A stretch of 21,945 nucleotides of DNA from the IMG/VR virus record IMGVR_UViG_3300020451_000053, positions 1 through 21,945 of that record; one strand, written 5' to 3'. A program made the position numbers and the translations under genes. Origin of the DNA: a virus. A model generated the notes under the pieces. The model made no database searches and had not been told where the DNA came from. It saw nothing but the letters and a program-made list of their open reading frames with translations. Below are positions 1-19,892 of this stretch, piece after piece (positions within the stretch are counted from its first letter, which is position 1; every line of letters starts with the position of its first letter).

Positions 1-546
1 TAAGGACACACTGTCAGATGCTTGAGTAGCAATCGAACCCAGACCAAGGCTGGTACGAGCAGTTGCGCCAGACTCAACAGTGAAGGCACTGCCATTGCCA
101 ACAATGAAGTTGCCATCAGAGTTGGACAATCCTGCCAAAGTGGCGGTTTGCGCGTTATAGCTTTGGACGTCGGTGTTAATAACCAAGCCCAGGGTGCTAC
201 GTACTGCAGAGGCATCAGCATCATCAAGAATGCTTCGGCCAAAGGCAGTTAGGTCGGCAACGGCATAGGTGTCGCTACCTGTTGTGTAGATCAGCTTGTT
301 AGCAGCAGTTGTCAGACCTGCGATGCTGGCCAAACCAGCGTCATAGGCTTGAATCTCAGTACCCGGACGCAGACTAAGCGTTGCTTGCACAGCAGACGCG
401 TTAGCGTCATCCAGAAGTGTGCGAGCAAAGGCTGTTAGATCAAACGTTGCATAGGTGTCTGATCCAGTCGCGTAGATGCCTTTGTTGGCAGATGTTGTCA
501 GACCTGCAATAGATGCGAGCCCTGCGTCGTAAGCCTGAATGTCAAC
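1..546 (-). repeat. 186-base tandem modules in tail fibre 3
   Basis: The phrase D/E-I/V-Q-A/S-Y-D/N-A occurs with starts at 546, 360 and 174, exactly 186 bases (62 residues) apart each time. Units 1 and 2 share AYDAGLASIAGLTT, then TGSDTYA and LTAF-R-LLDDA/ILDDA. Unit 3 keeps the spacing but has diverged (VQSYNAQTATLAGLSN) and runs off the edge. Confidence 0.85.
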
Positions 547-1773
547 ACTCGGCTCAAGATCCAGTGCCTGCTGCGCCGCAGAAACAGACGTTGCACCAGT
601 GCCACCATCACTGACGGCCAAAGTGCCGGTAATGCTGGAAGCGGCCAGATCAACAGCGATTTCGCTGCTTTCAATGACCAGACCACCATTGGCCTTCAGG
701 TCAGCACTGATTTCAACGCCACTCTTCGTAAGACCATCACCAGCAGTAATCGCACCAGCGCCAGAGAACTGAGTAAAGCTCAGTGCAGTTGTGCCAACAG
801 TGATGCTGCCATCAGTTGTCAATACAAAACCAGCATCAGCATTAACAGTGCCCTGCTCAACAAATGTGAACGCGCCAGAAGTTACTTCTGCATTAGTGTC
901 AAAGTCACTAGACCGTGCCCAAGCACCTGCTTTGCAGTCATAAATGCCGTTCTGAGAGCCTGTGCTTTGGTTCTTGACCAGCACACGCTCATCAGCAGAA
1001 ACTGCAACACCATCAATCGTCTGAGTGCCAGATAAAGTGATGTTGGCAGTCGTCGCAACTTTGCAGCTTTCCTTGACATCAAGGCCGCTAGTTAGCGCAT
1101 CAGCGTATGACTTTGTAACTGCATCTTGCGCAGACGTGGGATCAGCCAGGTTGGTAATTTTCTGGCTATTAAGATCAACCGAACCCGTAGGATTTGCCAG
1201 CGAATCAAGAGTGTTGGCCTGTACTCCAGCATCAAAATCAGAGATCTTGGTGTGAGCAAGAGACGGGATGTCTGATGCCTGCAGTGCTGCGATAGCAGTG
1301 ACAAGACCTTTGCCGTTGACTGTTACGCCAGAGGTGGTTCCCGGTGAAGAGTTGACAGTGGCAAGGGTTCCAGTGATCGACGTAGTGCCAGAACCACTAA
1401 TGTCACCAGAAACCGTGATGGTCTGGTTTGCTGTTAAAAATCCTTCTGCCTGCACATACGCGGTAGTCGCAACGCTTGTGCTGTCATTGCCACTGCTTGG
1501 TGTGGTTGCAGTGGCTGACCCGCCAAGAGCAACAGTGCCGCTAAAAGTCTTTGCGCCAGAAATGGTCTGCGTGCCGCTCAGCGTCGCGTAGGCGCCATCA
1601 CCACCAATAGCAACGATTGAACTAGCAGAGCCGCCAGAACCACCAGTGCCAATGCCGATATATAGGATGCCATTACCAGCATCACTTTCGTTGTAGGCAA
1701 GTTCCGCCTGCTCGAGACTTGCGGGGCTGCCTGCTGAGGATCCAGCACTACGTCGACGAATGCGAATAGTCAT
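1..1773 (-). CDS. Tail fibre 3, N-terminal 591 residues (runs off the left edge)
   Basis: From the ATG at 1771-1773 one frame stays open to base 1 (591 codons, last codon TTA). The start MTIRIRRRSAGSSAGSPASL, then EQAELAYNESDAGNGILYIG, is a classic phage fibre N-terminus that docks on the tail. It continues with Ser/Thr/Gly-rich shaft units and phrases such as TTAYVQAEGFLTANQTI and YDCKAGAWARSSDFDTNAEV. Near the edge a 62-residue unit repeats: IQAYDAGLASIAGLTT, a GSDTYA stretch and LLDDANASAVQATL. The same unit in altered form occurs in fibre 1. The C-terminus, with the likely receptor-binding part, is outside the window. No Shine-Dalgarno is evident before the start. Confidence 0.87.
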   Translation of the reverse strand, partial: MTIRIRRRSAGSSAGSPASLEQAELAYNESDAGNGILYIGIGTGGSGGSASSIVAIGGDGAYATLSGTQTISGAKTFSGTVALGGSATATTPSSGNDSTSVATTAYVQAEGFLTANQTITVSGDISGSGTTSITGTLATVNSSPGTTSGVTVNGKGLVTAIAALQASDIPSLAHTKISDFDAGVQANTLDSLANPTGSVDLNSQKITNLADPTSAQDAVTKSYADALTSGLDVKESCKVATTANITLSGTQTIDGVAVSADERVLVKNQSTGSQNGIYDCKAGAWARSSDFDTNAEVTSGAFTFVEQGTVNADAGFVLTTDGSITVGTTALSFTQFSGAGAITAGDGLTKSGVEISADLKANGGLVIESSEIAVDLAASSITGTLAVSDGGTGATSVSAAQQALDLEPSVDIQAYDAGLASIAGLTTSANKGIYATGSDTYATFDLTAFARTLLDDANASAVQATLSLRPGTEIQAYDAGLASIAGLTTAANKLIYTTGSDTYAVADLTAFGRSILDDADASAVRSTLGLVINTDVQSYNAQTATLAGLSNSDGNFIVGNGSAFTVESGATARTSLGLGSIATQASDSVSL

Positions 1774-1804: not shown

Positions 1805-2038
1805 TTAAAAATTTCCCCCGTCAGTCAGAGTTGATGTCGTGTTGACGGTGTCAGCCTTAAAACTACCTGCTGACGCAGAATAGTAAATTAGGCTCCCGTC
1901 CACTTTAGCTGTTTGATCAAGGGTGAAATCACCAGGAGGGCCTTGCGGTCCAGCTGTCGTTGCAGTGACAGTTGTCAGCTGCCCGCTGGTGCTGACAGTG
2001 ACCGTATTTTTTTGCGTGGTTACGTTTACTGAAGTCAT
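1805..2038 (-). CDS. Mini-fibre protein with collagen-like GPQGPPG box (77 residues)
   Basis: The 77-residue protein has a Thr/Val-rich start, MTSVNVTTQKNTVTVSTSGQ (1-20), then LTTVTATTAGPQGPPGDFTL, with a short collagen-like GPQGPPG run (30-36). It ends DQTAKVDGSLIYYSASAGSF and KADTVNTTSTLTDGGNF. The 'TVTVTT.GPQGPPG' phrase is common at the start of phage tail fibres, and 'YY.A.AG.FKAD.....TLTDGGNF' at the end of short fibre adaptor units. It is much shorter than a full fibre, so it may be an adaptor that caps or joins a fibre. It overlaps the preceding gene by 4 bases; 31 bases separate it from the third fibre, without an evident Shine-Dalgarno. Confidence 0.7.
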   Translation of the reverse strand: MTSVNVTTQKNTVTVSTSGQLTTVTATTAGPQGPPGDFTLDQTAKVDGSLIYYSASAGSFKADTVNTTSTLTDGGNF

Positions 2039-2373
2039 CTTGTGTACGACTGGTCAACAGAAATAATGCCTTCTAGGTAATACTCTTTGTCGCCATCTGC
2101 GTTTGTAACCAACACGTCGTAATATAAGCTGTCAGGAAAATCAGTTGTCTGCGTATCTGTCAGACTTATTGTCACCTGACCATTGCTGCGGTTGGTGTAA
2201 ACAACGCCAAAGTCAGCGTGTTTTGTTGTGCGCTCTTTGTTCCACGCCTGTGCCGCTACCGTTGAACCACTTAAATTAATCGCAGCATCGTTGCTGTCTT
2301 TAAACTGCAAAAGGACAGACCAGTCAGCTGCCCTCTGCAGTTGAAAGTTGTACGTTCCAGGGTTGACGGCCAT
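2035..2373 (-). CDS. Beta-rich structural protein before the third fibre (112 residues)
   Basis: The 112-residue protein has an immunoglobulin-like strand pattern: MAVNPGTYNFQLQRAADWSV (1-20), LLQFKDSNDAAINLSGSTVA, then AQAWNKERTT and NGQVTISLTDTQTTDFPDSL, ending YYDVLVTNADGDKEYYLEGI with a short tail. 'Y...L.R.ADW...L.FKD..G..INL.G' followed by 'YYD........G....L.G' is a pattern I recall from phage tail or baseplate-associated proteins (BppU N-terminal-like). It has the best Shine-Dalgarno in the window. The next gene overlaps it by 4 bases (ATGA). A fibre-adaptor role is inferred from its place before two fibre-type genes. Confidence 0.72.
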   Translation of the reverse strand: MAVNPGTYNFQLQRAADWSVLLQFKDSNDAAINLSGSTVAAQAWNKERTTKHADFGVVYTNRSNGQVTISLTDTQTTDFPDSLYYDVLVTNADGDKEYYLEGIISVDQSYTR

Positions 2374-3341: not shown

Positions 3342-6300
3342 TTAACCGGCCTCTAAGGCTACGATTCGCGCTTCAAGAGCTGTGTTTTTAGCAGAAAGCT
3401 CTTTGACTGCATTGACTAAATGCCAGACAATTTCGTCTGAACCTGTTACAGCCAAGATTCCGCTGTCACGAGTTGTTACCCAGCTTGAACGAACGTCCTT
3501 AAGCTCTTGGGCTATGACACCAAGCTGTGTACCTGTTTTAGACACTGCATCCGTAGATTGAACTTCACCATCAGTTTCAATTTCTTCTGCAGTCTTATAC
3601 TCAAAGTTCTTGACGGCAATTTGATTGATTATCGAAAGACCTTCGTTATTGTCAACAATGTTTTTCTTGATCCGACGGTCTGATGTGGTAGACCAAGCAG
3701 TAGTGTTTGCACTGTTGTAAGCGCCATTACTACCACCTGCAAAAAATGTGTGGGCACCCTTGCCAGTTATGTTATAGCCAAATACATATTCTCCACCGAC
3801 ACCAGCTGACGATGCTTGAGCATAAGCTCCAACATATACATTACTGCTGCCTGTAGTTAAAATCGTGCCACTTTGGAAGCCAAGACCTGTGTTTGTTATA
3901 CCTGAGGTGACATTTTTTAAAGACTCAGATCCGCTGGCTACGTTATAGTATCCAGTAGTACAGTTAGTAAGTGATATGTATCCAACGGCTGCATTGCTAC
4001 CTACAGTAGTGATGTTCGTGAGAGCTTGATAACCGACAGCTGTGTTATTAGCAGCAGTTGTTCCGTCAAGAAGAGCTTGATAACCGACAGCTACGTTGTA
4101 GGAGCCAGTTGTGTTAGAATAAAGACTACCAGTACCAAAAGCTGAATTATAAATACCAGTAGTAGTTGTCTCCATGGAACTAGAACCACAAGCCGTGTTG
4201 TTATGGCCAGTGATGTTGAAGCGGAGAGTATTCATGCCACAAGCTGTATTATAACTTCCACTAGTAGTAGCACGAAGAGAATTTACACCAAACGCAGCGT
4301 TTTGAGTGCCAGTAGTTGAAGACTTTAGTGAATCACCACCCATCGCAGTATTGAAAGAGCCAGTAGTAAGGCTTTCAGCGCAATGTGCGCCCACTCCGGT
4401 ATTAAAGGCGCCTGTTGTTAAATTGACTAGATTTCTATATCCAACAGCTGTATTTTCACTAGCTGTAGTATTATGATGAAGAGCAAAAGTTCCGACAGCA
4501 GTGTTTTCAGATCCAGTGCTACTGTTAAACAGACTTTGATAGCCTGTAGCTACGTTGTAGTTCCCAGTAGTGTTGGTCCTAAGAGAATTATATCCGGTGG
4601 CTGTGTTATTACTACCAGTAGTGTTGGCAAGTAGAGAACCTCCACCAATACTTACATTGTACTGACCAGTTGTGCTAACCCGGAGAGAATAGGCTCCTAC
4701 AGCAGTGTTTTCAGCACCAGTAGTGTTAGCATTGAGCGCTTGAAATCCGCAAGCTGTGTTGTTAACAGCAGTTGTGTTGCTATATAGTGCTGCATCACCA
4801 ACAGCAACGTTATTACTTGCAGTAGTGTTTAGGTAAAGGGCAGTTTTACCCACGGCTACGTTAGTAGATCCGGTAGAATTTGTGTTAAGTGCTAGCGATC
4901 CAATGGCTACATTGGAGTTGCCTGTAGTGTTGCTACGGAGAGTTTGATTGCCAATAGCAATGCCGTGACTTCCAGTGGTATTGTTAAATGCAGCCTCATA
5001 ACCTACTGCAGTATTATTACTACCTGTAGTGCTATAGAGAAGAGCGCGTGAACCTAAGGCTGTGCTCGCAGAAGCAGTCGTGTTTTCTTGCAGGGCTTGT
5101 GTGCCACAAGCTGTATTATGAGTACCAGTAGTGTTTGATTGCAGGGCGCTGCTGCCTAATGCTGTATTAGTAGAAACTGAACCAGCGCCACGGCCAACAG
5201 TGACGCTGTTAATTGTTGCGTCTGCAGTAAACGTAGCGCCACCCGAACTACTAATACGCATCCGCTGGCTGCCATTGACGTAAAACGACATTGGCGTAGA
5301 CGCGCCAACAGCAGATAACTGAAGATCAGCATTCGCTGCAGAAATTTGCCCTGTTAGTGTTCCGTTATAGTACCAGTTTGCATTTGCATTACTTGTAGTT
5401 CCGGTATCAAGTTTTAAGACAGGGTTTACATTTTTGACAATATGCAAGCCCGCGCTAGGGCTAGTGGTGCCGATCCCAACATTTCCGTCCCTGGTCATAC
5501 TCATGACATCGGACTTAGTTCCAAAATTGTTGCGCTGAAAAGTAAGTGAATCGTTATTTCCGCCTACATAAATAGCGTAACCTCTCCTTTCGCCACCGCG
5601 TTCTAGGTAAATACCTGTTGCAGCGGTTGTGCTGGTCTGTTTAAGGTTAATTGCTGCTGCATCTGTTGCACCAGAAGCTAAATCAGCACCAACGTGAATA
5701 AGTCCGCGAGGATTTGAATTATTGATACCAACATTTCCAGCGCTGTCGATTGCCATCCGCTGGGAACCATTGTTTTCAAAAGCAATGTTGCCCGCTTCAG
5801 AGTTTGAAATATACAAAGTGTTGCCACCTTGTTGAATTACTGCACCATTAGCGCCTGTTCCTGTGGTCGTATTGGTAAGCCTAAGTTCGGCTGTTGTGTT
5901 ACTACCGTGAATATGCAGATTTGTGCCAGCGTTGCTGTGAGGACTTGCGGTTCCAATCCCTACATTGCCATTACTTAAAAATGCAGCTGCAGTGCTTCCA
6001 TTAGGCTGAAGGTAAATATTAGCGTCAGCATAAATATTACTGCTGCCGCTAGAACCTGTTATACGAATTTGAGCCGAACCAGATGTGTCAGAAACGTGTA
6101 ATTTCTTTGCTGGACTTGATGTGCCCACCCCGACATTGCCAGCGCTGCTGATTACCATCCGCTCCGTTGGTGCAGTGTCGGCATTAGTATCACGTGTGCC
6201 AAAAATTAAATCTCCTTTTCCAAAGTTTGAGGCGTCTGTATATTCAAAAGCTATTGTGGCAACAGCGTTTGTCGCGCTTTGATTTACAGCAAAGTTTAGA

Positions 6301-7061
6301 TTTGTTTTTTGATTGGACGCGGGGCCTGCACCTCCCGCAATATTTACTGCCGCAGCGCCTGCATTCCCAAAACTTGTTGTAGCTGCAGAGCTAACCCACA
6401 GGTAGCCCGTAGTTGCTGTCAAGCCTCCTAGCGCTACTTTGCCAGCATTGTCGATAAGAATTTTTTGACTTCCGCCAAGTGAAGCCGCAAGCTTGTCTGC
6501 TCCGGGTGAAAATATTCCTGTATTAGAGTCACCATCAAAGCTAAGATCTGGAGCGCTTGCACTCGCTGCATTATCAAGCAGCAATGCACCAGTCATGGTG
6601 TCGCCAGTGACGTTCACGAACTCACCAGCTTGACTGCGCCATGCGGAGCCGTCGTAAATCTTCAGGTCATATCCACTGGTGGTATCAAGCCACTGTTCGC
6701 CTTTTTCATTGCCCTGCTGACCAGAAACAGTACCTGTGCCAGTGCCTGCACCACTGGCGGTAAAGACAACACCAACAGTGTTCGCACTTGCGCCAACTGC
6801 TGTGAAGTCAGTATTGCCAAGCGTCAAGATCTGATAAACCGTACCGCTTACCAGCGCGTCTGCAGCAGTCGTAGCCGGTGACGAGTTCGGCGCTGCAGTC
6901 CCAATATGCACTGGTCCGACTTTGACCAAGTCACCGTTGCTGTCCTTAAAGAACAGGCCCGGCGATGCTTGATTGGTGTTGACGGCAATCTGACCTGCGC
7001 TAAGCACGTTAGGGATTGGCCGCTTATGCGCTGAGCTGCTGCGAAGATTTTGGATTGCCAT
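3342..7061 (-). CDS. Tail fibre 2 with 17-residue repeats and S74 intramolecular chaperone
   Basis: This 1239-residue protein opens with an Mtd-like N-terminal box, KRPIPNVLSAGQIAVNTNQA (14-33), then SPGLFFKDSNGDLVKVGPVH. A fibre shaft follows with GNVGIGTSSP-type turns (about 300-550). Residues 632-1090 hold twenty-seven 17-residue repeats of the form N-T-A-V-G-Y-x-A-L-x-x-N-T-T-G-x-x. The C-terminal 115 residues are an S74 peptidase/endosialidase-type chaperone: TTSDRRIKKNI (from 1125) with the expected cleavage Ser1127, GVIAQELKDV, and a final coiled coil, LSAKNTALEARIVALEA. This domain assembles the trimer and then cuts itself off. The ATG is preceded by AAGG. Receptor binding is likely in the repeat region or at the junction; enzyme activity is not visible. 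Confidence 0.92.
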   Translation of the reverse strand: MAIQNLRSSSAHKRPIPNVLSAGQIAVNTNQASPGLFFKDSNGDLVKVGPVHIGTAAPNSSPATTAADALVSGTVYQILTLGNTDFTAVGASANTVGVVFTASGAGTGTGTVSGQQGNEKGEQWLDTTSGYDLKIYDGSAWRSQAGEFVNVTGDTMTGALLLDNAASASAPDLSFDGDSNTGIFSPGADKLAASLGGSQKILIDNAGKVALGGLTATTGYLWVSSAATTSFGNAGAAAVNIAGGAGPASNQKTNLNFAVNQSATNAVATIAFEYTDASNFGKGDLIFGTRDTNADTAPTERMVISSAGNVGVGTSSPAKKLHVSDTSGSAQIRITGSSGSSNIYADANIYLQPNGSTAAAFLSNGNVGIGTASPHSNAGTNLHIHGSNTTAELRLTNTTTGTGANGAVIQQGGNTLYISNSEAGNIAFENNGSQRMAIDSAGNVGINNSNPRGLIHVGADLASGATDAAAINLKQTSTTAATGIYLERGGERRGYAIYVGGNNDSLTFQRNNFGTKSDVMSMTRDGNVGIGTTSPSAGLHIVKNVNPVLKLDTGTTSNANANWYYNGTLTGQISAANADLQLSAVGASTPMSFYVNGSQRMRISSSGGATFTADATINSVTVGRGAGSVSTNTALGSSALQSNTTGTHNTACGTQALQENTTASASTALGSRALLYSTTGSNNTAVGYEAAFNNTTGSHGIAIGNQTLRSNTTGNSNVAIGSLALNTNSTGSTNVAVGKTALYLNTTASNNVAVGDAALYSNTTAVNNTACGFQALNANTTGAENTAVGAYSLRVSTTGQYNVSIGGGSLLANTTGSNNTATGYNSLRTNTTGNYNVATGYQSLFNSSTGSENTAVGTFALHHNTTASENTAVGYRNLVNLTTGAFNTGVGAHCAESLTTGSFNTAMGGDSLKSSTTGTQNAAFGVNSLRATTSGSYNTACGMNTLRFNITGHNNTACGSSSMETTTTGIYNSAFGTGSLYSNTTGSYNVAVGYQALLDGTTAANNTAVGYQALTNITTVGSNAAVGYISLTNCTTGYYNVASGSESLKNVTSGITNTGLGFQSGTILTTGSSNVYVGAYAQASSAGVGGEYVFGYNITGKGAHTFFAGGSNGAYNSANTTAWSTTSDRRIKKNIVDNNEGLSIINQIAVKNFEYKTAEEIETDGEVQSTDAVSKTGTQLGVIAQELKDVRSSWVTTRDSGILAVTGSDEIVWHLVNAVKELSAKNTALEARIVALEAG
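3345..3689 (-). other. S74 intramolecular chaperone domain of tail fibre 2
   Basis: This stretch encodes the C-terminal domain (residues 1125-1239) of the fibre. The motif TTSDRRIKKNI marks the autoprocessing site; Ser1127 is encoded at 3681-3683 and Asp1128 follows. The family uses a Ser-Lys pair to cut itself off after folding the trimer. The closing helix (heptad pattern L-x-x-K-N-x-x-L) resembles the coiled coil seen at the C-terminus of known members. Confidence 0.88.
3792..5168 (-). repeat. Twenty-seven tandem 51-base (17-residue) repeats inside tail fibre 2
   Basis: The coding sequence repeats with a strict 51-base period, and every unit I counted is 17 residues. The consensus is N-T/V-A-V/C-G at positions 1-5, variable 6-12 with Leu at 9, T-T-G at 13-15 and two variable residues. 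The last unit or two (residues about 1057-1090) are degenerate. Each unit probably forms one coil of a left-handed beta roll, similar in principle to the shorter NxxxxG coils of YadA-type heads. The DNA copies have diverged at synonymous and variable sites, so the array is old rather than a recent expansion. Confidence 0.9.
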
Positions 7062-7109: not shown

Positions 7110-10067
7110 TCAGAAGCTGCCGTCATCTAGCTGCGAAGTCAAAGCGAGAGTGCCAGTAGCGTTAGGCAACGTCAAAACTTGGTCTTGCGTAGGGTCTGCA
7201 ATCGCCAAGGTGGTTTCAAAGGCGTCGTCAGTCGGACCTTCAAACACCAATGAACCTGTGTTGCCAACAAGCACCTGACCAGTAAAGACGCCACCGGCCT
7301 TCGGAATTGCCAATGCCGCCAAGTCGTAAGCGGTCTTGACGCCATTCGGTGTTGCAGCAGTTGTGGTGCTTGAGGATGCGACACCATCAGTCAGCTGCAG
7401 AACGCCGACAGCACTCGTTGTGCCAGTGCTAACTGTCAGTGCAGGTGTCGTCGTGCCATTCGTGACACCAAGCGGTGCAGTGACCGAGACGCTAGTGACA
7501 GTACCGACTTGATTTGTAATCCACTCAAGGCCGGTTGTTGTGCTGCTGTTGGCACTGAGAATGAAACCGTTTGTGCCAACTCCAAGCTTATCGAGCGTTG
7601 TCGCAGCGCTAGCAGCGATCAAATCACCTTTGGTATAAGCAGCAATGTTCGTGCCGCCGTGATCAACATCAAGAATGCCACTGGTAATGTTCTCAGCGTT
7701 GCGAGATTCGTTGCTGACTTCTTCAAGAGCAGTCTGCACATTTGTCGCGCCAATCTCCCCCGCGGGGGCAAAAGCAACATTATTCGCCGTCTGCGCTGTA
7801 TAAGTACTGCTGACATCAATTTCAAGCCATGCAGCTCCAGTTGACAGCAACAAGTCAGGCGGCGCCAGCGTCACTGTGGGAGCTGGTGATGTGCCTGTTC
7901 CTCCGATAGAAACGATTACGTAATAGTTAGAGTTGTCTGAAGATGGAGATGGCAAAGCATTGCCAACTGCCAAACCAATCGCGGTGCCTTCATTTGTAAC
8001 AGATGCAATTTGATTGGTAGTTGCGTTATATGTACCACCGAGAATAATGGCACCAGCCGAAATGCCAATTGACTGCCAAACATTTCCATCCCAGAGGAAG
8101 AAGTTCTTATCTAGGGGGTTGAAATGCAGCTGTCCTGTAAACGATGCAACAGGTAATGTCTCGCCAATAGACGCCGTTGACTTGTTGGCAAGTTTTGTTG
8201 CCGTGATTGCGGCAGCGCCAATACGATCTGACGCAAACGAACCAGTCGTGACCTTTGAGGCATCAAGAACTGGAATATCGCTAGCAATCAGATCAACAGC
8301 AGCACTGATGTGACCCTGTGCGTCAAATGTGATCCCGCTCTTGGTTGCAGCAGTCACGGTGTTGCTGTGATTCAGCGTGCCGCTTGATACAGCTAAGCCA
8401 GTGCCTGGCTGAATAATGCCTTTTGCGCTGCTTGTTGCATCAGGCAAATCAGCAGGAACAAGTGCGCGGAATGTAGGAGCAGCATCTGAGCCAGATGCTG
8501 GGCCAACAAAAACCGAGTTAGCAGCTTGCGTCTCAAGCGTCAGCGTGATGTTTGCCGTGAAAGCATCAGGATTGTTGACGACGATTGACAGAGGCGTTGA
8601 CTCTGTAACTGTTACTGACTGAATGCCAGACTCTTGAACCCAGGTGTTCCCGGTGTATCTGTAGGCGATGCTGGTCGCCGTGTTAAACCAACCTTGGCCA
8701 GTAAACGCCCCAGCGCCGCTAGGCGTAGAAGAACTAACAATACAAGTGGACTGATCACCTAGCTTGTCCTCATCGATCGCAGAAGCGTTTATTTTTGACG
8801 TTGTTACTGCGTTTGTTTGGATGTTGGCCGCACCAACGATGTTGCTTGCCAATGCAGTGGCAAACGATCCAGTGCCAGAACCTGTGACAGCACCGGTCAA
8901 TGTAATTGTTTGATCACCAGTGTTAGTGCCTGAGCTAGTGCCAGCAAAAGATGACCCATTAGTCCAAGTGCCAGTCGCAACAGCAAGATCTCCAAGACCA
9001 AGTGTTGTGCGCTGTGCTGCAGCGTTTGCGTCATCTAAAAGTGCTCGGCCAGCACTGGTACAAGCTATTTGCTCGACGGTGCCAGCACCTGAAGTGCTGC
9101 GGCCAAGAATTACATCTGTGGTTGTAGTGTCTTGCAGTTTGTCATACGTGACTGCATCGCTGGCGATGTTGCTAGTACCAACAATTCCTGCAGCAAGTGT
9201 TGTGGCGAAGCTCCCAGTGCCAGTGCCGGTGACAGCACCAGTTAGCGTGATTGTCTGATCACCAGTATTAGTGCCGCTAGACGTACCAGAGTGCGTACCG
9301 CTAAACGTGCCGCTTTGCGTCGCAAGCGTTCCTAAGCCAAGTGTCGTGCGCTGCGCTGCTGCATCTGCATCGTCTAGAAGTGCTCGTCCTGCCGCTGTCA
9401 AAGAATATGCAGCGTAAGTATCTGAACCAGTCAGATAAATACTTTGATTAGCAGCAGTTGTGAGGCTAGAAATACTTTGCAAGCCTGCATCAAAACTTTG
9501 TACGTCTACTCCCAGCTCTACACCTAAGTTGACCCTGGCCCCAGCTGCCGTACTGCTGCCAGTTCCGCCATCGGCGACTGTTAGATCAGTGATGCCAGTA
9601 ATCGTGCCGCCAGTAATCGTTGCACTTGTACTGCTGAGATTGGCTGTGACTGTTCCAAACGTGACCGCATCATTGGTGTCAATACCAAGCGTCGTTCGCT
9701 GAGCCGCTGCATTCGCATCGTCAAGCAAAGCGCGTCCAGCAGCAGTACAAACGATCTCTTCAATAATTCCTGCGTTTGCACTGCTACGACCTAGCAGTCG
9801 ATCAGTTGCCGTTACGTTCTGAATCTTGGCGTATGTGACACCATCATCAGCAAGAGCAGCGGTGCCGATTTTTGTCGCGCTGGCCTGATCCAGCTTTCCA
9901 AGGTCAATAGAGCTGGCATCGACTAGATCAAGACCTGCATCGACTAGGTTTTTTGCAGTGACCTTTTTAGTTTCCGAGCCGCTGACATCAGCGATGGCAA
10001 GGACATCGTTCTGTGCGACGCCTGCTTTGGACAACTCGACGAGTTGCGTAATCCTTTGGTCAGCCAA
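7110..10067 (-). CDS. Tail fibre 1 (985 residues)
   Basis: The protein begins MADQRITQLVELSKAGVAQN, a fibre N-terminus common in cyanophages, followed by DVLAIADVSGSETKKVTAKN (21-40), likely the attachment domain. The shaft is built from repeats: AGRALLDDANAAAQRTTLG occurs at residues 110, 226 and 339, and SGTNTGDQTITLTGAVTG at about 264 and 379. The end reads VLTLPNATGTLALTSQLDDG, with no chaperone domain. The start is TTG (10065-10067): the codon two before it is an in-frame TGA, and a GGAG lies seven bases upstream, so TTG is the only sensible start. Low-complexity Ser/Thr/Ala/Gly composition and near absence of Cys fit a trimeric beta fibre. Receptor unknown. Confidence 0.88.
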   Translation of the reverse strand: MADQRITQLVELSKAGVAQNDVLAIADVSGSETKKVTAKNLVDAGLDLVDASSIDLGKLDQASATKIGTAALADDGVTYAKIQNVTATDRLLGRSSANAGIIEEIVCTAAGRALLDDANAAAQRTTLGIDTNDAVTFGTVTANLSSTSATITGGTITGITDLTVADGGTGSSTAAGARVNLGVELGVDVQSFDAGLQSISSLTTAANQSIYLTGSDTYAAYSLTAAGRALLDDADAAAQRTTLGLGTLATQSGTFSGTHSGTSSGTNTGDQTITLTGAVTGTGTGSFATTLAAGIVGTSNIASDAVTYDKLQDTTTTDVILGRSTSGAGTVEQIACTSAGRALLDDANAAAQRTTLGLGDLAVATGTWTNGSSFAGTSSGTNTGDQTITLTGAVTGSGTGSFATALASNIVGAANIQTNAVTTSKINASAIDEDKLGDQSTCIVSSSTPSGAGAFTGQGWFNTATSIAYRYTGNTWVQESGIQSVTVTESTPLSIVVNNPDAFTANITLTLETQAANSVFVGPASGSDAAPTFRALVPADLPDATSSAKGIIQPGTGLAVSSGTLNHSNTVTAATKSGITFDAQGHISAAVDLIASDIPVLDASKVTTGSFASDRIGAAAITATKLANKSTASIGETLPVASFTGQLHFNPLDKNFFLWDGNVWQSIGISAGAIILGGTYNATTNQIASVTNEGTAIGLAVGNALPSPSSDNSNYYVIVSIGGTGTSPAPTVTLAPPDLLLSTGAAWLEIDVSSTYTAQTANNVAFAPAGEIGATNVQTALEEVSNESRNAENITSGILDVDHGGTNIAAYTKGDLIAASAATTLDKLGVGTNGFILSANSSTTTGLEWITNQVGTVTSVSVTAPLGVTNGTTTPALTVSTGTTSAVGVLQLTDGVASSSTTTAATPNGVKTAYDLAALAIPKAGGVFTGQVLVGNTGSLVFEGPTDDAFETTLAIADPTQDQVLTLPNATGTLALTSQLDDGSF
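8856..9278 (-). repeat. Direct repeat in tail fibre 1 (SGTNTGDQTITLTGAVTG module)
   Basis: Two near-identical protein segments of about 26 residues (residues 264-289 at 9201-9278 and 379-404 at 8856-8933) read SGTNTGDQTITLTGAVTG, followed by a G-T/S-G-T-G-S-F-A-T run. They lie about 115 residues apart and are flanked by the AGRALLDDANAAAQRTTLG units, so the whole module of about 345 bases repeats roughly twice. Confidence 0.8.
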
Positions 10068-10103: not shown

Positions 10104-10979
10104 TTAGTCCGTTACTTCCTGCAGGAGGAAGTCAAGACCTTGCTCAACCCTGATGCGATCGTCATCTTCCTTCAGAATGTAGTCCGAAGGCTTGCCGATC
10201 ACAAGCTTGATTTCATCGGTCGTGACAAAATCAATCGTGCAGGTCACTACGCCGCCAGTTTCTACGGTTACTCCGACAGATGTTGTGACTGCAGTTGCTT
10301 GATAAAAAATGTTTTCAACAGTTGGTATTACTGCTTTGTCTGTTAGATACAGCGCAATGTCAAACGCAGAACCTAAGTCAAGACGCTGGATTGTTTGCAG
10401 CATAAAGATTGGTGCTTCTTCAGTGCCAGATGTCGTGTAATCAAAAAAGCATTCAATGCGACCGCTGCCACTTATCAAACCTGCGCTGTGCTGTTGTTTA
10501 TATTTGTCAGAAAGTGTTGTAAGATCCACGCTTTCGCGTGATGTGTTGAACTCGTATCTTGTGACATTGCCAAGAATGTTGAATCTAATATCGCGAACGC
10601 TCAAAGTTACTTCTATGGGATTGCCAGTAAACGCCTGCAGATCAATTTCATTAGATCTGGTGTTGTTTACTGCATCTTCAAATGAAGGATAAAGCCTTAA
10701 GCCGCCTGCAGCATTTACGTTGACAAACGTGCTGAAAGTTTTTTCGATCGCTGCCGAACTCCAATTCGAGGCAGGTATAAAAGCCAGTCCACGACTGTCC
10801 GTCGTCTCAATGTCGATGCGATCACCAGTAAATAAGTTATCAGTTGCACCATCAACGCCTACTCGCTCAAGCGTTGTATTGATGTCGTCAGGATCTATAG
10901 AAGCCTCAATACTCCCGATAAATACATCAGTGCCACGACGCAGCCTAATGTTGCCGTGATTGCCAAGGTAAAAGGCCAT
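10104..10979 (-). CDS. Enlarged tail tube-fold paralogue with an inserted domain
   Basis: The 291-residue protein starts MAFYLGNHGNIRLRRG, nearly the same opening strand as the tube subunit. The rest of the tube fold resumes at about residue 139: VTRYEFNTSRESVDLTTLSD (139-158), then GLISGSGRIECFFDY (167-181), then TSVGVTVETGGVVTCTIDF (233-251). Residues 17-138 are extra and hold strands such as GLAFIPASNW and an EIDLQAFTGNPIEVTLSVRD stretch. The extension at the C-terminus (about 265-291) is acidic. A tube-fold ring with an outward insertion would suit a fibre-docking collar just before the fibre genes that follow. That role is my inference; the shared core is visible directly. Confidence 0.66.
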   Translation of the reverse strand: MAFYLGNHGNIRLRRGTDVFIGSIEASIDPDDINTTLERVGVDGATDNLFTGDRIDIETTDSRGLAFIPASNWSSAAIEKTFSTFVNVNAAGGLRLYPSFEDAVNNTRSNEIDLQAFTGNPIEVTLSVRDIRFNILGNVTRYEFNTSRESVDLTTLSDKYKQQHSAGLISGSGRIECFFDYTTSGTEEAPIFMLQTIQRLDLGSAFDIALYLTDKAVIPTVENIFYQATAVTTSVGVTVETGGVVTCTIDFVTTDEIKLVIGKPSDYILKEDDDRIRVEQGLDFLLQEVTD

Positions 10980-11410
10980 CAGCTAATGACTTCAGTGAAG
11001 TCTCCGTCAACAGTGAAGTTGATGGGCACGACACTAAGCTCACCAGTGCTTACGGACACGCTGGCTGAGGTGATGTACGCATTGAATTTAATGTCGTCTG
11101 CATTAGCACCGCCAACATTTAACTCAAGCAATACTCTCTGAGTTGTTTCAATCGCACCCGTTTTCATAATTTTTGACAGCAATTCAGTGAACTGCGTCAG
11201 CGTTGCGCTTTCGCCAGTCTCAAGTTTGTAATACATCAGAGTTGCGCTACCTGTTGCACCTTTTACACCAGGCACAAACGTATTTACAGAACTGTCGATC
11301 GTATTAGTGCTGAGCAATTCGACTGTCGTTTCCAGCGACCAGTCACGGATTTTTGCTACAGGCTTGCTGTTGAAGACCAAAGAGCCGGTACGGCCAGTGA
11401 AAAAGCCCAT
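10979..11410 (-). CDS. Tail tube-fold paralogue after gpJ (small)
   Basis: The 143-residue protein looks like a second copy of the tube subunit. It shares the opening strand (MGFFTGRTGSLVF against MAFYRGEQGNVLF), the segment IRDWSLETTVELL (against VRTWSLTIDKESL), a central GVKGATGSATLMYYKLETG (48-66) against GGLIGGSGTIEVFYEKTAAG, and the closing KFNAYITSASVSVSTGELSV with an N-F strand. Length matches the tube subunit. Such a copy is not normally found downstream of gpJ. It may form a ring at the tail tip that carries the fibres, or a minor tube component. It overlaps the next gene, another copy, by one base, so the two are likely co-translated. Function beyond the fold is inferred. Confidence 0.66.
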   Translation of the reverse strand: MGFFTGRTGSLVFNSKPVAKIRDWSLETTVELLSTNTIDSSVNTFVPGVKGATGSATLMYYKLETGESATLTQFTELLSKIMKTGAIETTQRVLLELNVGGANADDIKFNAYITSASVSVSTGELSVVPINFTVDGDFTEVIS

Positions 11411-15726: not shown

Positions 15727-16193
15727 CGCAATGACAACGCTGACTCCAAAGGCAAAATCCCAACATTTTTACTTGTCAACGAATTTGCCGGAAAGTTAGA
15801 CGCAACCGCATCAAGAGCTGAGCTGAAACGTAACTCGATCGTGTCTGTACTAAACGACGCACCAAGGCCAACAAAGATTTCATGCGGACCATTATTGCTA
15901 ACACCGCCAGACTGATTTACAAAACGCGTATCAAGCGTCAGCAAACTTTTGCGATTGCCTTCGCCCTCTTCAACAAGCCTGACCGCATATTCAGTGGCAG
16001 GAAACAAAACTGTAAGCTGATCGTTATCACCGTTCAAACTTGAAACAGATCCATTTACTTGAAATGGTGCGAATGAAAAAGACGCCCCGCCAAACGTCTG
16101 CTTAGAACCAACAAAATAATTTTGAAAACAATGCCGTTTACCGTTGTCGGTCAATAGATCAAAAAATTGAACCAGACGGATTTCATTTGTCAT
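15723..16193 (-). CDS. Minor tail protein at the gpL position (DUF1833/gpL-like)
   Basis: The 156-residue protein sits between the M-like and K-like genes, where lambda has the tip protein gpL. Visible features are MTNEIRLVQFFDLLTDNGKR (1-20), FAPFQVNGSVSSLNGDNDQL (41-60) and FPATEYAVRLVEEGEG (64-79). The C-terminus reads NVGILPLESALSLR. The 'F.PF.V.GSV..L.GDN..L...FP.TE' pattern is one I associate with DUF1833-like or gpL-like tail tip proteins. Lambda gpL binds an iron-sulfur cluster through four C-terminal cysteines. Here the only cysteine is Cys22, so no such cluster can form. The assignment rests mainly on order; DUF1833 and gpL cannot be told apart by eye. Confidence 0.64.
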   Translation of the reverse strand: MTNEIRLVQFFDLLTDNGKRHCFQNYFVGSKQTFGGASFSFAPFQVNGSVSSLNGDNDQLTVLFPATEYAVRLVEEGEGNRKSLLTLDTRFVNQSGGVSNNGPHEIFVGLGASFSTDTIELRFSSALDAVASNFPANSLTSKNVGILPLESALSLR

Positions 16194-16597
16194 GCTTCAA
16201 TTTCTCCGATCAGCTTTACAACCACAGTGCTTATGCCTGACTTGACACTCTGCACTTTCGGCGGTTCCGCATAACGCCATTTTACGTCAGCTGGACTTCG
16301 CACCAAGTCTCTAACGCCGTTGTCCATGCCCTCAAACACACGCGCAGGTAACGTAAAGCTCTCAAATGTCCCATCTACATTGCCGTAATGATCCATAATT
16401 TCCTTTGCTGTGCCTGAATTAGTTCGCAGCTCAGAGGTGTCGCCTATGTTCTTAAAGGTTAGATCCATCGTGTAGCCGGTCTGTCTATTGCCGAATGCAC
16501 GCTTGAAAATTGCCCCAGACAATGACCTGTAGGTCTTGCTGGGATAATCGCCCAGAGAGAATGAACGGGTTGTCGGCTTTATGCTTGGGAATGCCAT
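16190..16597 (-). CDS. Minor tail protein, lambda gpM-like
   Basis: This 135-residue protein is first in the tip series after the tape measure, where lambda has gpM. The N-terminus, MAFPSIKPTTRSFSLGDYPS, is followed by an aromatic/basic stretch (FKRAFGNRQTGYTMDLTFKN, 31-50), a common pattern in gpM-like distal tail proteins, where it is the 'R.FG.......W...F.N' strand pair. Later come EIMDHYGNVDGTFESFTLPA and SPADVKWRYAEPPKV, again beta-rich. The family joins the tube to the tip complex. It overlaps the tape measure by 1 base and the next gene by 4. The role is well supported by order and moderately by motif. Confidence 0.72.
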   Translation of the reverse strand: MAFPSIKPTTRSFSLGDYPSKTYRSLSGAIFKRAFGNRQTGYTMDLTFKNIGDTSELRTNSGTAKEIMDHYGNVDGTFESFTLPARVFEGMDNGVRDLVRSPADVKWRYAEPPKVQSVKSGISTVVVKLIGEIEA

Positions 16598-18882
16598 CAG
16601 CTAATACCGACACGGGCGCGTGTGCGCGGGCTGTTCTGCATTCTATCTAGCGTCATATTCATGCCACGTTTAGCACCATCACTTGCCGCCTGACGACGTG
16701 TTGTCGCCATTGCTGATTCGAGCTGCTCACGGCTGACGTACTCCGTTCCGCCAATGCTAGTGGTCTCAAAGGTGAAGTTCATAGACATGCCTGCGTTGCC
16801 TGCAGGAGAGTTGCCCATCATCCTCCGCATATCTTCATTCCGCATAATGCCACCATCTTGCCCAGGAACAAACAGCTCAGGACCACGTTCGCCGACCATA
16901 TAAGGACGACCGCTATCAACAGGACCACCATTGGCTGCAAAACCAGGAATGCCCAAACTAGAACCTATGCCGCCAATACCAGCGTTCAACAAAATGCCGC
17001 CAATCTGTTTCAACACTCCAGACAACGACTCTCGCAAAGACTTGCTGCCATCAATGGCGCTGGTAATCGTATCAACGATGCCAGCCTGAATTGATGCGCC
17101 AATGCTCTCATAAACTTGTTTCAACTGTTGCGCTTGAGCTTCTAATCGTTCCTGCACTCTTTCCTCTTCCGTCTTACGCTCTTGTGCAGCTTTTTTGAGC
17201 TGTTCAGTCGCATCTATTTGGTCATGTAGCGCAACAGTCGCTTGCAGCTCTGCTTTGACCTGATCATCAGTCAAGCCTCTTTTGTTTCTCAAAATTTCAG
17301 CAATCTGTATCTGTCGTTCAAATTGCTGCCGCTCTTCATTTGTTAACGCAGACGCTAATAATGTTTGATTTTTAAGGCTTTGCACTCGATCTTCTGACGC
17401 AGCCGCTTGCCTCCTAGCTGCTTCTGCTAGACGCTCTGCGTCTGTAGTTGCTTGCGCGTCGCTTGCACCCCCGCCAGTCGGAACAATGTTGCTGGCTGGG
17501 GCATCAACAGTAGGTGCTGGTGTAGCCGTACTTCGAAGTTTTTCTGCCGCTTCAAACTTTTTCAAAGCCAGAGCTTCAACTTCAGCCTCATCAGCTTTTC
17601 TTGTACCACGACCCATGACACCGCCCAACTCTTTGCGGGCTTGCGTACGTGCAGCATTCATACGGAACATTCTCCCAAGCGCGTCTGTCGCACGTACCGC
17701 TGCAGTGATTACAGAATTAACAAGATCTAAAATGCCTTTAATTGCTGGGCCAAGAACTTGATCTAAACTACGCATCAACGTACCAATTTTGTTGACAATT
17801 TTAGTAATCTGCGACGAAACCGTCTGACCCATAATGTCAGCAGCGTCTTTAGCGGCTCCAGTTGCATCTTTTTGATTGCCAAGATTTTTATTAAACGTGA
17901 CAAGATCGTCGTTAATCAAAGGCATCAATGCCTTGAGAGCGTCAACCGATCCGAACAGTTTTGTAATCTCAACCTCACTACCACCAGTTGCTTTAATGAC
18001 ATCTTCCAAGAAACCGCCAAACCCTTTTGTTTTTATTGCCGCACTGCTGAAATCTAAACCTAACCTCTTGGCTGCCTTTGCCGCCTCAGCCGTTGGCTTG
18101 ACAACAGAGGCGATAACTTGGTTAATACCAGCAAACGTGCTTTCAACTGGCACACCTTGAGCAGTGACAGTAGAGATTGCTGCATTTAGCTCATCTAAAC
18201 CCACGCCAGCAGCGGCTGCGATAGGAGCGACACGACCAATTTGCGTAGCGTATTGTCCAACAACGATTTTACCGTCGTTTTGTGTCTGTATAAATCCATC
18301 AACGATCTTGGCCACACTGTCTGTAGTTAAGCCGTAAGAATTCATCACGCTTGTTGCAGCATCTGACACCGTTGCAATGTCAGTCATTCCACCTGCTGCA
18401 CCAAGAACTGATGCTTCTAAAATTTTTGTAATGTCAGCAGCATTACTAAAACCTGCAGAGGCAACGTCATACGACGCAGCTAACAACTGGTTTGACGATG
18501 CCAAACCATCTGTGCGAGCCACAACACCTACAAGTTGATTTTCTAACGCTTTCGCGTCAACTCCAAGCGTTCTTACCGCTGCTCTTGCTCTGTCAGCCTC
18601 AACAAAACCCTTAAATCCTCCTACAACTGCCGCGGCGGCACCTGCTACTAAAGACAGTGGCCCAAGTATGCCTTTGACCGCTACACCCAAAGCTTTTGTT
18701 GTTACACCAGCAGCGCCTGCACCTTTACCAAAGGCTTTAATTGCATTTTCTGCAACGCCAGTAGAACCACCAGACTTGCGGACTGCGACCTCTAACTTGT
18801 TGACTTGCCGTTCGAGCTGCGCAACCTTTCTGTTTGCGTCGCGTGTTTCGACCTTAAACCTAATGCTGGTTTCAGTAGCCAC
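16597..18882 (-). CDS. Tape measure protein
   Basis: The 761-residue protein sets tail length and is later ejected ahead of the DNA. It starts with a coiled-coil helix (about 8-36), then a hydrophobic segment, GILGPLSLVAGAAAAVVGGF (71-90). The TP901-type tape-measure core follows, with repeated Ala/Gly-rich helices and phrases such as ASYDVASAGFSNAADITKIL and VAPIAAAAGVGLDELNAAIS. A charged coiled coil occupies roughly 490-600. The C-terminus has GGPVDSGRPYMVGERGPELF (from 652), a hallmark of many siphophage tape measures. The start is GTG (18880-18882), preceded by AGGTG; the ATG five bases upstream is out of frame. At about 1.5 angstrom per residue the tail would be near 110 nm. The stop overlaps the next ATG by one base. 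Confidence 0.93.
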   Translation of the reverse strand: MATETSIRFKVETRDANRKVAQLERQVNKLEVAVRKSGGSTGVAENAIKAFGKGAGAAGVTTKALGVAVKGILGPLSLVAGAAAAVVGGFKGFVEADRARAAVRTLGVDAKALENQLVGVVARTDGLASSNQLLAASYDVASAGFSNAADITKILEASVLGAAGGMTDIATVSDAATSVMNSYGLTTDSVAKIVDGFIQTQNDGKIVVGQYATQIGRVAPIAAAAGVGLDELNAAISTVTAQGVPVESTFAGINQVIASVVKPTAEAAKAAKRLGLDFSSAAIKTKGFGGFLEDVIKATGGSEVEITKLFGSVDALKALMPLINDDLVTFNKNLGNQKDATGAAKDAADIMGQTVSSQITKIVNKIGTLMRSLDQVLGPAIKGILDLVNSVITAAVRATDALGRMFRMNAARTQARKELGGVMGRGTRKADEAEVEALALKKFEAAEKLRSTATPAPTVDAPASNIVPTGGGASDAQATTDAERLAEAARRQAAASEDRVQSLKNQTLLASALTNEERQQFERQIQIAEILRNKRGLTDDQVKAELQATVALHDQIDATEQLKKAAQERKTEEERVQERLEAQAQQLKQVYESIGASIQAGIVDTITSAIDGSKSLRESLSGVLKQIGGILLNAGIGGIGSSLGIPGFAANGGPVDSGRPYMVGERGPELFVPGQDGGIMRNEDMRRMMGNSPAGNAGMSMNFTFETTSIGGTEYVSREQLESAMATTRRQAASDGAKRGMNMTLDRMQNSPRTRARVGIS

Positions 18883-18906: not shown

Positions 18907-19089
18907 TTACCGCCGCTGCGTCCTTCCGCGATTCATTGCCTGCTCTTCTCTTTTGTTTTTTAGCTCGTAGTACGCAGCAAAATGCACAAGCTCTGCATCA
19001 GACAACTCTGTTCGCAGCTTGCTAACCGTCATACCTAGCTCGCAGGCCAAGAAAAACTCAAAATAGAGCCAGTTGTCCTGCTCTAAGCT
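18907..19089 (-). CDS. T extension of the tail assembly chaperone (made by -1 frameshift as G-T)
   Basis: After a one-base backward slip at the A7 run, translation continues from AGC (19087-19089) for 60 residues to a TAA at 18907-18909. The extension reads SLEQDNWLYFEFFLACELG (start) and then MTVSKLRTELSDAELVHFAA, ending KREEQAMNRGRTQRR. The 'MTV..L...LSDAEL..F.AYY' pattern is typical of the downstream half of siphophage tail chaperones, where it lies behind a Trp/aromatic-rich linker. Fused to residues 1-118 of G it would give about 178 residues. It has no good start site of its own near the beginning; an internal ATG at the MTV is possible but has no evident ribosome site. It ends 24 bases before the tape measure start. 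Confidence 0.8.
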   Translation of the reverse strand, partial: SLEQDNWLYFEFFLACELGMTVSKLRTELSDAELVHFAAYYELKNKREEQAMNRGRTQRR

Positions 19090-19442
19090 TTTTTTGCTGC
19101 ATCAAGGTCTTCGCCTTCACCAACGCCAAACAAGAACAGTTCGAGGTCGTTTAGCACAGACTCAGGCAACTCATGCTGAAGCTTGGCCGCGTCGGCACTG
19201 GCGAAAGCTTTTGATCCGTCATGCAACTCAGCAAGTTGACACAGCATTTGCGTGCTGATGTCCAATGCTTCTTCACTGTTCGCCAAACTTTGCGCACGCT
19301 TGCGATCAGCCCTTGTGATGGGACGAAAGTAGAGATCTAGGACAGGATCGCCTGCTTCAGTTTTGATAGTGAACTTGCGCCGCTGGCTAAGGTCAAAAGC
19401 CCCAACCAGTAGATCAACTGTCCTGACGTTTTTAGCGGGCAT
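19083..19442 (-). CDS. Tail assembly chaperone G (unshifted product)
   Basis: The 119-residue product is the short form of the tail assembly chaperone. It has an N-terminal beta part (FDLSQRRKFTIKTEAGDPVL, 16-35; LYFRPITRADRKRA, 37-50) and a helical part ending in the acidic VGEGEDLDAAKKA. The phrase 'F.PITRADR' resembles siphophage gpG-like chaperones. It sits between tube and tape measure genes and should bind the tape measure while the tube is assembled. The last sense codons are GCA AAA AAA GCT before TAG, which form a slippery A7 run (19089-19095). A fraction of ribosomes should shift back one base there and make the longer G-T product. Role is firm by position plus frameshift; sequence motifs alone would be weaker. 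Confidence 0.82.
   Translation of the reverse strand: MPAKNVRTVDLLVGAFDLSQRRKFTIKTEAGDPVLDLYFRPITRADRKRAQSLANSEEALDISTQMLCQLAELHDGSKAFASADAAKLQHELPESVLNDLELFLFGVGEGEDLDAAKKA
19089..19095 (-). promoter_or_regulatory. Programmed -1 ribosomal frameshift site (A AAA AAA)
   Basis: On the coding strand, seven consecutive A bases lie in the required phase: gcA AAA AAA gct, with both AAA codons able to re-pair after a one-base backward slip. The zero-frame stop TAG follows one codon later. A possible 6-bp stem, TAGAGC/GCTCTA with a 10-base loop (19064-19085), begins three bases after the run, closer than the 5 to 9 bases usual for stimulators. The minus-one frame opens at this point into a chaperone-like 60-residue extension, which is what makes the site convincing. 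Confidence 0.8.
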
Positions 19443-19445
19443 ACA

Positions 19446-19892
19446 TCACACTGATGCAATAGCGACTGCACCCTTAGTGTCAAACCCAAGAGTTACAACC
19501 TGTAGCTCACCAACCGTAGCACTAAATTCTGCGCTAGTAATCAATATATTGAAAGTAATTTTTTCGCTGCCAGAACCTTGGCTGCCAGCATCAAACGTGT
19601 AAAGCTCGGCACCTGCAACGGTTGATTCAGTGGCTGGAGTCGTAAGGATCTCACGAATCAAGTCACCTTTGCCATCTCCAGCAGCAGTTTTTTCATAAAA
19701 CACCTCGATGGTGCCACTACCGCCAATCAAGCCGCCAACTCGATCACGGAATGAATCGCCCATCTTCGTCACTTCCAATGATTCTTTATCAATAGTCAAA
19801 GACCACGTCCGAACAGCTGCAACAACTGTCAACGTGTCACCAGAATCATGCCGGAACAGAACGTTGCCTTGTTCGCCGCGATAGAAAGCCAT
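19446..19892 (-). CDS. Major tail tube protein
   Basis: The 148-residue protein lies between the tail terminator and the tail chaperone genes, the conserved place of the tube subunit. It starts MAFYRGEQGNVLFRH, then has VRTWSLTIDKESLEVTKMGD (27-46), a GLIGGSGTIEVFY segment (54-66), and ends with ITFNILITSAEFSATVGELQ (112-131) plus VVTLGFDTKG. This is the strand-helix-strand order of the TP901-1/gpV-like tube fold, where two beta sheets stack into hexamer rings. The proteins at 10979-11410 and 10104-10979 share its opening strand, the central GSG/GSA strand and the closing GEL-type strand, so they look like paralogues. This one is called the main tube subunit because of its position and standard length. 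Confidence 0.86.
   Translation of the reverse strand: MAFYRGEQGNVLFRHDSGDTLTVVAAVRTWSLTIDKESLEVTKMGDSFRDRVGGLIGGSGTIEVFYEKTAAGDGKGDLIREILTTPATESTVAGAELYTFDAGSQGSGSEKITFNILITSAEFSATVGELQVVTLGFDTKGAVAIASV

Follow-up and report, generated by a model that had tools for sequence, protein, structure and literature searches.

Analysis of a 21,945-base virus record from IMG/VR, referred to here as the window, confirmed two tail-tube paralogues of the major tail protein (MTP), designated TB and TC: both are encoded after the hub gene while still being identifiable as tube relatives by sequence, which is their unusual point. TB and TC are inherited with the hub and with the fibre gene that follows them, and MTP is exchanged separately. 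We consider it fairly probable that they are old duplicates of a tube protein that became dedicated tail-tip rings, coupling the tube or the hub to the fibre.

The head-tail and tail genes of the window form one minus-strand run in the order head-tail adaptor, head closure, tail terminator, MTP, chaperone-position protein, tape measure, three small tail proteins (T1-T3), the 1304-aa hub, TB, TC and three fibre-like genes (Table 1). The two open reading frames for TB and TC lie on the minus strand where the original prediction had placed them, and the TB stop and TC start share one base in TGATG.

Table 1. Tail genes and TC segments of the window discussed in the text.
Feature	Coordinates	Strand	Evidence
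TB, tail-tube paralogue, 143 aa, single undecorated tube domain	10979..11410	-	blastp, hhalign, Foldseek, phrog_10528
TC, tail-tube paralogue, 291 aa	10104..10979	-	tblastn/blastp, hhalign, AF2, weak Foldseek matches
TC tube domain proper, residues 131-262 (approximate)	10194..10589	-	hhalign, AF2
TC insert in tube fold, residues ~16-130 (approximate)	10590..10934	-	AF2 pLDDT
TC conserved C-terminal tail, residues 263-291	10107..10193	-	conservation vs low pLDDT
Hub / gpJ-like tail protein, 1304 aa	11438..15352	-	phrog_27845 tail protein, 2.2e-7
Tail fibre directly after TC	7110..10067	-	phrog_24210 and Phage_fiber_2
MTP, major tail (tube) protein, reference paralogue	19446..19892	-	phrog_10528, 1.5e-14
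Chaperone-position protein (tail assembly)	19083..19442	-	phrog_20784
Tape measure protein	16597..18882	-	phrog_991, 1e-48; PhageMin_Tail
T1, small minor tail protein next after tape measure	16190-16597		
Fibre- or spike-like protein, Peptidase_S74 intramolecular chaperone domain near C-terminus	3342-7061		
Third fibre-like gene	1-1773		
LtfC-like small protein among fibre genes (T5 L-shaped fibre assembly)	2035-2373		phrog_3304, 2e-8; Pfam LtfC below cut-off

Comparison of the window's 13 main proteins with each other by blastp aligned TB with MTP over the whole length of TB (31% identity over 146 residues, E 1.4e-14) and residues 133-185 of TC with MTP (E 1.8e-6; about 2e-6 to 4e-6 across tblastn and blastp), with every remaining pair of different proteins at E > 0.4. 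The first 15 residues of TC are 53% identical to the start of MTP. Profile-profile comparison with hhalign bore out both relationships, matching TB to MTP (P 98.4, E 7.6e-15) and TC residues 137-259 to MTP residues 25-145 (P 96.7, E 3.5e-10); the direct match between TB and TC is weak, and MTP links the two. T1, which served as the negative control, gave P 0.1 against TB and was also rejected as a further tube paralogue, having no Pfam or PDB match and a visual likeness to lambda gpM that was not confirmed. PHROGs provided independent support, assigning TB to phrog_10528 (1.8e-5) and TC residues 132-267 to phrog_1407 (6.7e-4), both as major tail proteins. Neither TB nor TC has a Pfam family, which says little because MTP also falls below the Pfam cut-off. 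The MTP profile matched the R4C major tail protein (8gtb, E 0.019); PDB sequence searches with TB, TC and the hub gave nothing useful, and those with the long MTPs of related phages gave nothing.

The original prediction had started from three shared motifs, and these were found in MTP (MAFYRGEQG, GSGTIEVFY and GELQVV), TB (MGFFTGRTG, GSATLMYY and GELSVV) and TC (MAFYLGNHG, GSGRIECFF and GGVVTC), except that the opening of TB has F where Y had been given. The tube paralogy that it drew from them holds for both proteins, with the qualification that the likeness of TC to MTP is not whole-length, TC carrying an insert at residues 16-129 and an extension at 263-291. Its accompanying premise that tube genes lie only before the tape measure was too strong, as distal tail proteins and hub domains encoded after the tape measure are also tube-folded (lambda gpM, PMC10721106; T5 p140, pb9 and pb3, PMC10038345).

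Structure prediction of single chains, from which a shared fold had been expected, agreed well for TB and less well for TC. The AlphaFold2 (AF2) model of TB (pLDDT 70) retrieved with Foldseek, as its top matches, tube or terminator proteins of R4C, phage 812, lambda, monocin and a gene transfer agent (GTA), the tube matches ranging upward from E 4e-5 to 1e-3. The model of TC (mean pLDDT 68) arranged its strands and a helix as in a tube protein (138-262), followed by a floppy tail; its PDB matches reached E 0.04 at best and mixed unrelated proteins with several tube folds (80alpha, NF5, Hcp and lambda gpV), and searches of viral models returned mostly unnamed proteins in long, poor alignments. 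By hhalign, TB and TC contain one tube domain each, which in TC is laid out as a first strand (1-15), an insert of ~114 residues (16-129), the tube domain (130-262) and the tail (263-291). The insert (about 18-128) is the best predicted part of TC, with pLDDT 73-90 from residue 21 on. The tail (...EYILKEDDDRIR.EQSLDFLL.EVTD) is conserved despite its predicted disorder, with a mean top-residue frequency of 0.77, exceeding that of most of TC, and an AF2 pLDDT of 31-46.

In many relatives (L125, L036, L091, L123 and others, and Synechococcus phage KBS-S-2A, L231:32907-33665) MTP is itself long, ~250 aa with an insert of ~110 residues after the first strand, and TB stays plain. These inserts occupy the same site in the tube fold as that of TC; however, long MTPs are main tube subunits and their inserts are not detectably homologous to the TC insert (hhalign P 2.8), so that homology is not claimed.

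Relatives were collected from IMG/VR with TC (78 loci), TB (80 retained of 132) and MTP (80 retained of 116) as baits; a separate search baited with the hub yielded 10 loci. Among the TC, TB and MTP loci the order hub-TB-TC-fibre is essentially invariant: the hub lies directly before TB in all 145 testable loci, TC adjoins TB in 126 of 132 and the fibre follows TC in 121 of 122, counts that are not all independent because some contigs entered twice under different locus numbers. Five of the six loci where TC did not adjoin TB reflect the stop-to-stop rule used to extend open reading frames, TC being present there, and at the remaining one (L069) a contig end truncates TB. As TB and TC had themselves served as baits, the test was repeated with the search seeded by the N-terminal 100 residues of the fibre alone. 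TC was immediately upstream in 80/80 loci (best 80 of 164 matches, 55-93% identity), and TB was present in all 78 of these with enough upstream sequence, a result free of TB, TC and MTP bait bias, yet one that covers a single phage group. The original prediction had envisaged a collar for perhaps three different fibres; the linkage concerns one of the three fibre-like genes, the one adjacent to TC (7110-10067). Identity in this fibre, averaged per ten residues, was 0.68-0.89 over the first ~100 residues and 0.43-0.58 beyond, a drop that matches the expectation for an anchor, and the conserved N-terminal ~100 residues are likely to be one. No segment of TC stood out as a docking surface when its segments were correlated with the fibre N-terminus (tube 0.62, insert 0.55, tail 0.30). 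The fixed place of TB and TC between hub and fibre, together with the strict linkage to the fibre anchor, fits a tip ring or a fibre collar.

The proteins of the block also share their inheritance. Over 20 loci carrying the whole block, the identities of TC correlated with those of the hub (rho 0.92), the fibre (0.91) and TB (0.91), and TB and TC both followed hub and fibre more closely (rho 0.83-0.92) than they did MTP (0.68-0.69; TB-MTP 0.68), while MTP tracked the chaperone-position protein (rho 0.90). Recombinants displayed the same separation in both directions: relative to the window, L097 has an MTP of only 29% identity but a TB of 85% and a fibre of 75%, and L161 has an MTP of 86% but a TB of 40% and a hub of 28%. 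TB remained 70-85% identical across phages whose MTP falls to 25-35%, in a sample in which most loci came via TB, TC or MTP baits and high identity in those proteins was favoured; the fibre matched this high conservation, and MTP, T1 and the middle of the hub did not. TB and TC are thus inherited with hub and fibre, and MTP and the chaperone-position protein are exchanged separately.

A tree of tube domains separated four groups, namely TB (support 88, or 87 when its distant members are included), TC (100) and the MTPs of short (91) and long (100) type; its columns are too few to order the deeper branches. TB is one old clade and TC another, and a recent tandem duplication is ruled out, both being deep single clades. 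Two relatives, L194 and L204, combine TB and TC after the hub with a tandem pair of tube genes ahead of the tape measure, giving four tube paralogues.

We propose that TB and TC each form a tube-fold ring close to where the tube meets the hub. The TB ring would be plain, whereas that of TC would be decorated by the inserted domain, facing outward; the insert and the conserved C-terminal tail of TC may together make a collar, on which the fibre encoded next to TC could dock with its N-terminal ~100 residues. This model is drawn by analogy with phage T5, where p140, a duplicate of the tube gene, gives a plain ring below the tube that is encircled by the p132 collar bearing the side fibres (PMC10038345). 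TB and TC resemble p140 in being tube-gene duplicates within the tip gene module and, putatively, in an association with side-fibre attachment, a plain ring being proposed for TB, which at 143 aa has no decoration domain, as is also true of the window's MTP, whereas TC has its insert. The p140 ring is trimeric and pseudo-hexameric, like that of the two-domain tube protein pb6, to which p140 is 9% identical (PMC10038345); in contrast, TB and TC have one tube domain each instead of two fused ones, TB is 31% identical to its tube protein, and the window adds a second, decorated paralogue. No p132-like gene was recognised in the window and no sequence relation of TB or TC to p140 was found. The LtfC-like gene among the fibre genes is a further, faint T5-like note.

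The weak point of the ring model is that TB changes little where MTP changes much: TB could stack directly on the tube only through an interface that tolerates a great deal of change, and a place outside the tube would also suit the observation. TB and TC might then be tube-folded proteins outside the DNA channel, an outer adaptor ring or bracket merely holding the fibre to the hub. The strict linkage to the fibre N-terminus, the conservation that TB shares with the fibre and not with MTP, T1 or the hub middle, and the insert and tail of TC would all suit such a part. We nevertheless regard it as unlikely, if the most serious competitor, as TB retains a complete tube domain including the N-terminal strand, and the collars known to lie outside the channel, T5 p132 among them, are Ig-folded and not tube-folded (PMC10038345).

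Somewhat less likely still is a role of TB, TC or both as distal tail or tube-initiator rings that start tube polymerisation, as lambda gpM, Dit or T4 gp48/gp54 do, with fibre attachment secondary. The distal tail gene usually lies right after that of the tape measure, a place filled in the window by T1 (although searches matched T1 to no known fold) and not by TB and TC, which follow the hub and co-vary less tightly with MTP than with fibre and hub. A tube fold at the tip is nonetheless what TB and TC have in common with lambda gpM, a distal tail protein of tube topology (PMC10721106), and in T4 the hub is separated from the tube by additional tube-like rings of gp54 and gp48 (PMC10038345, PMC8718954); the T4 proteins differ, however, in belonging to a contractile tail with a sheath, in their gene context and in having no sequence match to TB or TC.

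It is very improbable that TB and TC have nothing to do with the tip and serve in the tail shaft or neck as minor or alternative subunits of the tube. Their tube paralogy is compatible with this, as is the tandem pair of tube genes that some relatives have ahead of the tape measure; however, their genes lie after the hub and are co-inherited with hub and fibre, MTP is exchanged independently, and the gene directly before the chaperone-position and tape measure genes, the place of a major tail protein, is MTP. Coincidental likeness of short beta-rich motifs, by themselves weak evidence, can be practically dismissed given the full-length profile and fold evidence with T1 as negative control, and is already refuted for TB.

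Use of a duplicated tube protein at the tip is already known, documented chiefly in T5, whose authors regarded p140/p132 as a landmark of the T5 family only (PMC10038345). The form taken by TB and TC, a pair of single-domain paralogues encoded downstream of the hub and strictly linked to a fibre anchor, was absent from the literature searched. Among 50,697 phage records, the window's TC had no match and a divergent TC (L077) only a weak one, to the S-H1 tube protein; TC was absent from cellular genomes. TB matched only the major tail proteins (phrog_10528) of Synechococcus phage S-H1 and of Prochlorococcus phages MED4-117 and MED4-184, its closest relatives among phage records, which differ in being encoded before the tape measure, and those records held no TB or TC profile match after the hub.

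The chaperone-position protein and its S-H1 counterpart share 78% identity, and one long-MTP group includes KBS-S-2A; psbA, a possible host hint, was found in none of 21 related contigs. The window derives from an uncultured virus akin to cyanobacterial phages, with a marine or freshwater picocyanobacterial host likely but unproven. More tentatively, we suggest that in uncultured phages related to cyanosiphophages a tip with two extra tube-derived rings and the fibre anchor may constitute an exchangeable cassette that moves independently of the tube. It would then be a second solution of the T5 p140/collar type, one that evolved separately and dispenses with an Ig-like collar protein. Such a cassette would characterise a widespread group with up to four tube paralogues per phage. 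If TB and TC act as p140 and p132 do, tube-gene duplication would be a more general route to a fibre collar, and the hub-TB-TC-fibre block would be a natural unit with which phages of aquatic microbes could swap host-recognition devices while leaving the tail tube unchanged. The strict linkage makes the first 100 residues of the fibre and TC a concrete candidate docking pair.

Two tandem MTP genes precede the tape measure in many relatives (L194, L204, L202 and about 40 more), as in S-H1. Tube and chaperone-position genes occur at both ends of the MED4-117 record (L229, 229-1030 and 38091-38805) in copies that are not identical, reflecting a genuine duplication or else an artefact of how the record was assembled. 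The place of T1 differs among phages: it follows the tape measure in some, and in others it comes between the hub and TB (compare the window with L161 and L153). Several T1-like proteins are present in Mic1 (L230) and S-LBS1 (L232).
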